Origin: a virus
IMG/VR virus record: IMGVR_UViG_3300031825_000042
Location: 1-39,489 of that record
Length of the DNA: 39,489 bases
Direction: 5' to 3' (one strand)
A model generated the notes under the pieces. The model was not told where the DNA came from, made no database searches, and saw nothing but the letters and a program-made list of their open reading frames with translations. A program made the translations under genes and the position numbers. This document shows, in pieces, positions 15,612-18,066 of this stretch. Position 1 is the stretch's first letter; every line of letters starts with the position of its first letter.

Positions 15612-16361
15612 TTAAGATGCTTTATTGAGAAACTTATTTAAAAAGTAGATCTGTCCACGACCTGTAACTTTTGGAGTTGATTTTATTCTACTTCCGGTAT
15701 TTCCGTTTACCGTGAACTCTTTTACCTCAAATAATTTGAGTTCCATTCCTTTTTGTGTTGGAAGGTTGCGGCGCTCACCAGACTTACAAAGATAACCTTC
15801 TTCTCTGAGGTACTGGAACAACCGCGTTTGTCCGATATTAACGCCGTTTTGCTTCAGGTAAGTTGCAAGTTGACCGACTAGGATAGAATCATTAGAAGCA
15901 GATACTGCATCTGCGAAGATTGTTTTAGGCTTGTCCGCTTCGATTTGAAGCGACAACCGCTGATTATGTGCCTCAGCCTCTTGGTTTTTCTCAATCTCTG
16001 CAGCCAGCAGCCGAAGCGTTTCAGGCATTGTTTGTGGAAGAACATAACCGCCAGTTTTACGGATCATTGGGATGACTTCGTGAGTAATCCAACGTTTGAA
16101 CTGTTTGGCTTCTGGTTTGCGGCTACCGAGAATTAATGAGTAAAGGCCAGATTCGTTTACAATGGTCAAATTTTGTGTTCCTCCAAGGGTGTCAGTTGAA
16201 CTTACTCCCTTTTCGTCTTCGTCCAATCGTTCGACTGCCATGCGGCTATTCGTCAGTTCAAGAACATCACATACATCCTTAGCAACGAACCAGGGTTCTC
16301 CGTTAATCACTGTGCTGCGTACTTCTTGATTGCTGTACATGAATTTTTGAAGTTGGTTCAT
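15612..16361 (-). CDS. Phage antirepressor (BRO-N plus KilAC)
   Basis: The 249 residues consist of an N-terminal BRO domain (FMYSNQEVRSTVINGEPWFV, AKDVCDVL, VNESGLYSLILGSRKPEAKQ, FKRWITHEVIPMIRKTGGY), a short linker and a C-terminal KilAC/ANT domain (LVGQLATYLKQNGVNIGQTR, LFQYLREEGYL). Such proteins inactivate or compete with the phage repressor and favour the lytic cycle. It is the second gene of the leftward early operon, directly behind cro, and so is under the GACGAGT operators. The product may act on CI, which carries no RecA-cleavable domain. Confidence 0.92.
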   Translation of the reverse strand: MNQLQKFMYSNQEVRSTVINGEPWFVAKDVCDVLELTNSRMAVERLDEDEKGVSSTDTLGGTQNLTIVNESGLYSLILGSRKPEAKQFKRWITHEVIPMIRKTGGYVLPQTMPETLRLLAAEIEKNQEAEAHNQRLSLQIEADKPKTIFADAVSASNDSILVGQLATYLKQNGVNIGQTRLFQYLREEGYLCKSGERRNLPTQKGMELKLFEVKEFTVNGNTGSRIKSTPKVTGRGQIYFLNKFLNKAS

Positions 16362-16373
16362 ACATAATCCTCC

Positions 16374-16601
16374 TTATGCTGATTTAGGTTGTTTTTGACG
16401 AGTTACTCGTCCGTTTTGGGTAAAAAAAAGGGACATTTCGAACCCAAGTACATCTGCTATGCTTTTTGCAGTAGCGCCACCAGCATTAGCTGTGCCTCGT
16501 TCAATGTCGGCGTAGTAACTACGAGATATTCCACTAAGTTGGGCTACCTCGAATTGAGTCATGTTCTTTGCTTTTCTCATTTGTTTTAGCCAGTGTCTCA
16601 T
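16374..16601 (-). CDS. Cro-like repressor
   Basis: This 75-residue XRE protein (MRHWLKQMRKAKNMTQFEVA, QLSGISRSYYADIERGTANA, FEMSLFFTQNG) is the first gene of the leftward early operon. It is preceded by a near-perfect promoter that contains operator O2. ATG 16601 follows AAAGGA; TTG 16607 is an alternative. The palindrome O4 lies in its last codons. By position it is the Cro counterpart of the CI-like gene on the other strand. Confidence 0.85.
   Translation of the reverse strand: MRHWLKQMRKAKNMTQFEVAQLSGISRSYYADIERGTANAGGATAKSIADVLGFEMSLFFTQNGRVTRQKQPKSA
16397..16411. promoter_or_regulatory. Operator O4, inside the cro-like gene
   Basis: GACGAGT-t-ACTCGTC is the only perfectly symmetric copy of the operator family, about 240 bp from the promoters. 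It may serve looping or auxiliary binding. Confidence 0.7.
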
Positions 16602-16616
16602 ATTCAATTCCTTTCT

Positions 16617-16631
16617 GACGACTAACTCGTC
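16617..16631. promoter_or_regulatory. Operator O1
   Basis: GACGACT-a-ACTCGTC is just downstream of the leftward start site and before the cro ribosome site. Confidence 0.75.
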
Positions 16632-16646
16632 ACTTGGTATGAGATT

Positions 16647-16675
16647 AGTATATGACGATTAACTCGTCATGTCAA
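16647..16675 (-). promoter_or_regulatory. Main leftward early promoter
   Basis: TTGACA-N17-TATACT, one base from consensus, with operator O2 filling the spacer. Binding there must block RNA polymerase. It drives cro, the antirepressor and the early operon. Confidence 0.9.
16654..16668. promoter_or_regulatory. Operator O2
   Basis: GACGATT-a-ACTCGTC fits exactly between the -35 and -10 of the early promoter. Confidence 0.8.
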
Positions 16676-16765: not shown

Positions 16766-17128
16766 TTGTTCTCAGAGAGATTGAAAGATCTGCGGAAGAA
16801 AAATGGACTCACTCAAGAGGAAGCTTCTAAAAGACTAGACATAGCTAGGACTACTTATTCGGGATACGAAAGAGGAACATCTGAACCAGATTTTAATACA
16901 TTGAATAAATTGGCAAAATTTTATGAAGTAGATTTGAATTGGCTATTAGAAGGAAAAAAAGAGAGCGAATATTCGCTCCCAGAGGAATTAATGTTGAAAA
17001 TCATTAAAGAGGCTGAAGCAGAATACAAGGTTAATTTACGTGATGATCCTGTCGTTGAGTCAGCTGTAAGAGATCTGATTCGGCATCTTGCAAAAATGAA
17101 GATGTCATCAAGTAAAGACCCTGAATAA
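16766..17128 (+). CDS. CI-like repressor without a self-cleavage domain
   Basis: The 120-residue XRE protein starts at TTG 16766 after GAAGGAGGA. The HTH is at residues 5-60 (LKDLRKKNGLTQEEASKRLD, IARTTYSGYERGTSEPDFNT), followed by a helical C-terminal segment. The protein is too short to hold an S24 peptidase domain, so RecA-stimulated self-cleavage cannot be the induction route. The LexA-box-like sites downstream and the antirepressor gene offer alternatives. It probably binds the GACGAGT operators. A 56-residue frame runs antisense into its last 98 bases. Confidence 0.85.
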   Translation: MFSERLKDLRKKNGLTQEEASKRLDIARTTYSGYERGTSEPDFNTLNKLAKFYEVDLNWLLEGKKESEYSLPEELMLKIIKEAEAEYKVNLRDDPVVESAVRDLIRHLAKMKMSSSKDPE

Positions 17129-17201
17129 GTGTATCTTCATTAATGTTTAATCCTTTCTTCTCTATTATTTTATTAGCCAACTGTTTAGCAAGATCATCCA
17201 T
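17031..17201 (-). CDS. Putative SOS-controlled 56-aa protein, antisense to the cI 3' end
   Basis: ATG 17201 follows AAGGGG by nine bases. The frame reads MDDLAKQLANKIIEKKGLNI, NEDTLIQGLYLMTSSFLQDA and stops at 17031, overlapping the last 98 bases of cI on the other strand. An extended -10 promoter (17245-17273) lies about 40 bases upstream with a LexA-box-like palindrome over its -35. Small LexA-controlled antirepressors are known in other temperate phages. The sequence shows a full expression signal set but no recognisable domain, so both the coding status and the role are tentative. Antisense interference with cI mRNA is an alternative. Confidence 0.45.
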   Translation of the reverse strand: MDDLAKQLANKIIEKKGLNINEDTLIQGLYLMTSSFLQDAESDLLQLTQRQDHHVN

Positions 17202-17244
17202 GTAAACCAACCCCTTAGAGTTTTGATGCAGTGATGCTTAATAA

Positions 17245-17273
17245 ATAATACCACATCACTGGAAGTAAAAGAA
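17245..17273 (-). promoter_or_regulatory. Extended -10 promoter for the 56-aa frame
   Basis: TTCTTT-N17-TATTAT with TGg immediately before the -10. The -35 overlaps the LexA-like box at 17271-17282. Confidence 0.55.
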
Positions 17274-17282
17274 CACTTGTTC
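17271..17282. promoter_or_regulatory. LexA (DinR)-box-like site 1
   Basis: GAAC-ACTT-GTTC, the core of the Gram-positive LexA box (CGAAC-N4-GTTCG) with different outer bases. It lies between the divergent 56-aa frame and the HTH gene at 17315. Confidence 0.55.
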
Positions 17283-17314
17283 TGTTTTTGATTAAAAAAA
17301 TATAAGGTGGCAGT

Positions 17315-17533
17315 ATGATGGAGTATGTACCCGTCAGCTGTCGCATTCCTTATTTGCTTAAAAGGATAGGTAAGAATCAACAATGGTTAGCAGACAGCAC
17401 AGGGTTAAGTAAGCAGCGTGTATCGGATATCGTACACTTGAGAATGGATAATATCACGATACAACGCGCCGCAATCATTGCTTACTATCTCAATTGTTCT
17501 CTTGATGATCTTTTTAAATGGGAATGGCGATAG
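17315..17533 (+). CDS. Second XRE-family regulator of the lysogeny region
   Basis: The 72 residues are MMEYVPVSCRIPYLLKRIGK, NQQWLADSTGLSKQRVSDIV, then a helix ending LDDLFKWEWR. This is a compact HTH of the HTH_26 type. AAGGTGG precedes the ATG. It shares its upstream region, including a LexA-like box, with the antisense frame at 17031-17201. It may modulate CI/Cro or the LytTR unit. Confidence 0.75.
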   Translation: MMEYVPVSCRIPYLLKRIGKNQQWLADSTGLSKQRVSDIVHLRMDNITIQRAAIIAYYLNCSLDDLFKWEWR

Positions 17534-17730
17534 CGGAGTGGCTTAGCCGCTCTCGGGTGAGAGTACCACTTAATTGGTACTTATACTTCCAAGTGTCTAT
17601 ATTGTGAAACACATCACCTTCTTTGTAAATAGTTTATGCGGTTAATATACCAGAAGAAAAAAGAAAACGCTGTCGAAAAGTGACGAACGAAAGTTCAGTT
17701 CACCACCACTATGGGGGTTGACTTTCGCAT
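17534..17730. other. Non-coding gap between converging HTH and LytTR genes
   Basis: It contains a second LexA-like box at 17685-17696, a GTACC/GGTAC hairpin near 17565 and an inverted repeat CGAAAGT...ACTTTCG around the end of the LytTR gene. A minus-strand TATATT with TGg before it near 17650 precedes a possible 32-codon GTG frame with a poorly spaced ribosome site. No gene is called. Confidence 0.5.
17685..17696. promoter_or_regulatory. LexA (DinR)-box-like site 2
   Basis: (C)GAAC-GAAA-GTTC, which keeps one of the outer C/G bases of the consensus. It is located just past the stop of the LytTR gene. Confidence 0.5.
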
Positions 17731-18066
17731 TCACACCTGCTTTGAAACATCCACATGCGTTCCATCTATAAAAACAATCGTAGATCCATTATGGTCCTTG
17801 GCTTTAATACTTTCTACTTTATTAATATTGATGCAATGTGACTTACCGGCGAGTTCAAAACCGTATTTTTCGCACACCCTTGCAATATCTGATAGTGTGG
17901 TTATTGCTAGATAAGATCCATGTGAAGTATGGAAAGCTAGTACTTTAGTAGAATTTTTATTTTTATACCATAGGTCAATATAGTTTACTTCATCTATCAA
18001 GTCGATTTCGACAAAATCAGAATCATCCCCGAACCTATTGAACATTTTCACTGTAAGTAATTTCAT
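17731..18066 (-). CDS. LytTR-domain DNA-binding regulator
   Basis: The 111-residue protein has a short beta-rich N-terminal part and a LytTR domain from about residue 40 (VLAFHTSHGSYLAITTLSDI, ARVCEKYGFELAGKSHCINI, NKVESIKAKDHNGSTIVFID, GTHVDVSKQV). No receiver domain is present. Free-standing LytTR regulators in streptococci (HdrR, BrsR) are held in check by a membrane protein encoded beside them. Here a four-helix membrane protein is divergent from it, and a 21-bp-spaced direct repeat, the spacing used by LytTR dimers, lies in the shared promoter region. ATG follows AAGGAGAC. Confidence 0.8.
   Translation of the reverse strand: MKLLTVKMFNRFGDDSDFVEIDLIDEVNYIDLWYKNKNSTKVLAFHTSHGSYLAITTLSDIARVCEKYGFELAGKSHCININKVESIKAKDHNGSTIVFIDGTHVDVSKQV

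Follow-up and report, generated by a model that had tools for sequence, protein, structure and literature searches.

The window, a 39,489-base viral record, carries a cI repressor gene on the plus strand (16766–17128) whose 120-aa product has an HTH N-terminal half and a short C-terminal half, for which two helices are predicted. CI carries no peptidase domain beside its HTH, which bears out the view of the initial annotation that a protein of this size leaves no room for self-cleavage. An ImmR/ImmA system would be expected to include an M78 (ImmA-type) peptidase; a scan of the 39,489-base record, which is possibly a fragment, matched none at E ≤ 1, and on these grounds we set aside an ImmA-type protease route. 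Two GACGANTNACTCGTC palindromes between cro and cI (16617–16668, starting at 16617 and 16654) are probable CI/Cro operators, as is, likewise, a third exact copy at 16397, at the end of cro. On the other side of cI lies HTH72 (17315–17533, plus strand), which encodes a 72-aa HTH protein and is the neighbour gene by which relatives were found; it has relatives, too, in SPbeta-group Bacillus phages, where they are annotated yotL and YokH. A small LytTR-domain protein (17731–18066, minus strand), which adjoins HTH72 in several relatives too, matches a PHROG that carries the label peptidase.

Convergent with cI is a leftward frame of 56 codons, p56 (17201–17031, minus strand), which starts with an ATG at 17201 and shares 98 nt with the 3′ end of cI. 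A ribosome binding site, AAGGGG (17216–17211), stands 9 nt before this ATG. The predicted leftward promoter (17245–17273, minus strand) consists of an extended -10, TGG-TATTAT (17253–17245), and a -35 region at about 17273–17268 that is overlapped by a GAAC-N4-GTTC palindrome, GAACACTTGTTC (17271–17282); transcription is predicted to start at ~17238. The promoter, the palindrome over its -35, the ribosome site and the frame are all as the initial annotation had described them. Since no match to GACGANTNACTCGTC within two mismatches, and hence no operator of the CI type, is present at the p56 promoter, CI itself is probably not its controller. Leftward promoters in the relatives follow one of two layouts, with the -10 either about 18–21 bp after the box, where it is usually of the extended kind seen in the window, or only 1–3 bp after it, in which case the promoter spacer is occupied by the box; a few relatives fit neither. 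An A run at 17289–17300, read as T on the minus strand, hardly varies among relatives, where it lies 12–18 bp from the box and one column is 100% T; it is a candidate UP element, translation enhancer or other element.

The p56 unit is predicted to end at an intrinsic terminator inside the linker codons of cI (16980–16954, minus strand; stem 16980–16961, T run to 16954). The stem begins 51 nt beyond the p56 stop, within the KKESEYSLP codons, giving a predicted transcript of ~285 nt. Of 17 class A loci, 14 have a terminator hairpin at the equivalent place; L028, L032 and L051 do not. Across these 14 sequences, 99% of the hairpin pair cells hold standard pairs, compared with 45–87% after sliding one arm, and in three sequences a pair switches from C-G to U-A, at the same position, although part of the conservation of the hairpin can come from the codons of CI. 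Because this conserved terminator sits inside cI, read-through of an SOS transcript into cro is unlikely.

Exact matches to GAAC-N4-GTTC occur three times in the 39.5-kb window, at 16287–16298, 17271–17282 and 17685–17696. The expected number is 0.47, and one of 100 shuffles reached three; hence, counts alone are only mildly unusual. The initial annotation had placed two of the palindromes correctly, at 17271 and 17685, but its argument that two such sites in 430 bp are unlikely by chance is weakened by these statistics. Nor do the relatives compared have any box corresponding to the palindrome at 17685, which had been proposed as a second part of the switch and is probably, judging from this comparison, a chance occurrence. 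The palindrome at 16287, which the annotation had overlooked, lies within the coding sequence of ant (GEPWF) and has a counterpart, in variant form, only in L011 among the relatives compared; we rejected it as a part of the switch.

The palindrome at 17271 is convincing because its position is conserved in relatives, and not because a second site lies nearby. Relatives were gathered by a CI search of viral contigs and by an HTH72-alignment search of viral contigs and bacterial genomes; the close relatives among named genome records are Paenibacillus. Counting distinct loci with the HTH gene, and leaving out duplicates and the distant loci L054–L058, we found an exact GAAC-N4-GTTC 40–74 bp upstream of the HTH gene in 32 of 38, a box with one mismatch in three (L003, L037 and L047) and no LexA box in three (L050, L052 and L069). 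In 33 non-redundant loci the arms hold 1.67–2.0 bits of information per column and the four central bases 0.23–1.05. In all nine Paenibacillus genomes examined, GAAC-N4-GTTC lies shortly upstream of the lexA start, and a one-mismatch form, GAAT-N4-GTTC, lies 88–108 bp upstream of recA (9/9). The p56 promoter thus carries the same motif as host lexA and, with one mismatch, host recA. From these sequence comparisons, in related loci and in Paenibacillus lexA and recA, we conclude that the palindrome is a true LexA box, of the type used by the host, and LexA would be expected to bind at 17271–17282. Near the place of the missing LexA box, L050, L052 and L069 have a perfect palindrome, CTAATCGATTAG, ~50 bp upstream of the HTH72 start. 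The small genes of L052 and L069 resemble that of L034, a locus with a LexA box. In L098, the box, small gene and HTH72 adjoin a longer HTH protein of another kind that replaces the class A CI.

As the initial annotation had proposed, we looked at whether the frame is conserved in relatives, and it is: a leftward frame with a ribosome site, mostly of 36–63 codons, is present at the loci analysed. Outside the overlap with cI, pN/pS for the small gene is 0.42, 0.34, 0.27, 0.55, 0.89, 0.43 and 0.65 in seven groups, these being uncorrected ratios from protein-guided alignments in which within-group pairs are not independent. In all seven groups, the ratio in the small-gene frame is below that in the other two forward frames. 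We conclude that, by this measure, purifying selection acts on the part of the small gene beyond the overlap, and that p56 is a small protein-coding gene under a predicted LexA promoter. The AlphaFold2 model of p56 is a two-helix hairpin (pLDDT 88) with no confident structural match. Searches of Pfam, PHROGs and NCBIfam gave no convincing match for any member of the small-protein set; the lowest E-value in these family libraries, 0.0053, came from a single member and an antitoxin model. In 100 Paenibacillus genomes there were four matches to the class A small protein, and no relative of known function was found for p56. We conclude that the window is from a Paenibacillus phage, and that related phages keep the arrangement of a small gene opposite the end of the repressor gene.

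The type of small gene follows the type of CI C-terminal domain. Small-gene classes match CI C-terminal classes in the three best-filled classes, except in L020 and L037, with the small classes holding too few loci for agreement to be judged. With the DNA-binding half of CI and HTH72 held constant, the partial rank correlation between the small gene and the CI C-terminal domain is 0.49, a value matched by none of 499 permutations; the corresponding correlations of the small gene are 0.29 with the DNA-binding half of CI and 0.13 with HTH72. With positions counted from the box, L011 and L048 share 96% identity only between -320, which falls in the linker of cI where the terminator lies, and +34; L003 and L043 are 87% identical from the left edge of the stretch that was compared up to +33, diverging rightward. 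Co-inheritance is partly forced, because the two genes overlap in most loci. Mimicry of the CI C-terminal sequence by p56 was rejected, since the mean z was 0.20 for a small protein against its own domain and 0.21 against other classes, with L012 alone standing out; a profile comparison of p56 with the CI C-terminal domain gave a probability of 0.1. More tentatively, the CI C-terminal domain and its antagonist, on opposite strands between the terminator and the LexA promoter, may together be an exchangeable cassette through which differing repressors become SOS-inducible, with an input that could be changed by operator replacement (mostly a LexA box, the non-LexA palindrome in L050, L052 and L069); we hold this idea to be possible, though somewhat short of an even chance.

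We consider p56 likely to be an antirepressor that is induced by SOS and acts on CI. In a lysogen, host LexA would occupy the box over the p56 promoter. DNA damage would lead to cleavage of LexA and to synthesis of the transcript, which would start at ~17238 and stop at the terminator within the linker of cI. As a small two-helix protein, p56 would then bind the CI C-terminal domain, whose oligomerisation surface would be the simplest contact site, whereupon CI would leave the cro/cI operators and cro and ant would be expressed. The comparisons described above support the box and promoter, the gene and its terminator, and the joint inheritance of p56 and the C-terminal domain of CI; we infer CI as the target, its C-terminal domain as the contact site and the loss of repression. 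Conservation of the box, promoter, frame and terminator, together with the host lexA/recA boxes, gives strong support to the main proposal of the initial annotation, that a small unit under LexA control converges on a CI that is not cleavable, except for the role that the annotation gave to the palindrome at 17685. Counting against the antirepressor reading, L050, L052 and L069 keep the small leftward gene without a LexA box.

The unit might instead act mainly as an antisense RNA, through pairing of the SOS transcript with the 3′ part of the cI mRNA or through interference of its transcription with that of cI. The transcript would cover ~170 nt of cI, and OOP of phage lambda, a transcript antisense to the 3′ end of cII with a LexA site at its promoter (PMC5869508), provides a precedent: the p56 transcript, too, would run antisense to the 3′ end of a gene for a phage regulator and has a predicted LexA site at its promoter. 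However, OOP is a small regulatory RNA, whereas p56 is a coding frame whose codons outside the overlap are under purifying selection, which argues against a non-coding transcript of the OOP type. Moreover, the small genes of L004, L039 and L042 finish before the cI stop, ribosome sites are kept at the small genes of the relatives, and even in lambda, CII activity after SOS induction was not restored by mutation of OOP (PMC2327240). We therefore regard a mainly antisense action as improbable; by these sequence patterns a pure antisense-RNA mechanism is less likely, and an antisense effect may occur in addition to that of the protein.

A protein product need not act on CI, and p56 could be an SOS-induced protein with another target in the host or the phage. 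It has no known relatives, and its tie to the CI C-terminal domain may reflect mere overlap and linkage. Nevertheless, CI lacks a peptidase domain, no ImmA-type peptidase was found in the window, and the small-gene type tracks the CI C-terminal type more than it does other neighbours, so we view another target as unlikely, though less so than antisense action. It is far less probable that the box governs the rightward HTH72 gene, with p56 incidental or a second target. The distance from box to HTH72 is nearly constant, mostly 44–54 bp, and the box could also serve HTH72, but a rightward -10 would coincide with the HTH72 ribosome site, and leftward promoter elements are kept around the box. Furthermore, L015 has the box without HTH72, and L018 keeps the box, leftward promoter and small gene with an integrase in place of the HTH gene, indicating that the box belongs to the leftward unit.

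The p56 arrangement, with p56 as an antirepressor, probably lets a prophage with a repressor that does not cleave itself wake on host DNA damage. If so, it would explain the DNA-damage response of a group of Gram-positive prophages whose repressors are too short for self-cleavage, would add several small protein families that have no annotation in the libraries searched, and would provide a natural repressor-antagonist pair whose parts could be tested through simple domain swaps. A literature search, incomplete in coverage, found no paper describing a LexA-box arrangement antisense to cI. A short HTH repressor with a small partner recalls SinR and SinI of Bacillus subtilis, SinI being a 57-aa antagonist. 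The CI model aligns with SinR from the SinR/SinI complex over 94 residues (rmsd 5.8), mostly in the HTH half. None of 16 small-protein members matched the SinI family in Pfam at E ≤ 1, and Foldseek gave no match of p56 to a SinI-like fold, which excludes nothing. Positions 4–107 of the CI profile match the repressor of phage Phi106, solved in complex with AimX (PDB 9sf2, 9iaq); the p56 profile (A6) had no match at E ≤ 10 among PDB sequences, including the AimX chains, and AimX is under the arbitrium system, whereas p56 is under a predicted LexA box. In the TF-smORF modules of linear plasmid-like phages, small proteins without homologues inactivate their own CI without proteolysis (PMC10432266), but their switch is a phage transcription factor that works independently of SOS. 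LexA-controlled antirepressors whose repressors are not cleaved include Tum of coliphage 186, AntC of N15 and GfoA/GftA of the Gifsy prophages (PMC3121763), and by analogy p56 would share both features, an antirepressor under LexA and an uncleaved repressor. Unlike the antirepressor genes of Gifsy, which are located outside the immunity region, p56 is antisense to the end of cI and has its terminator inside cI.
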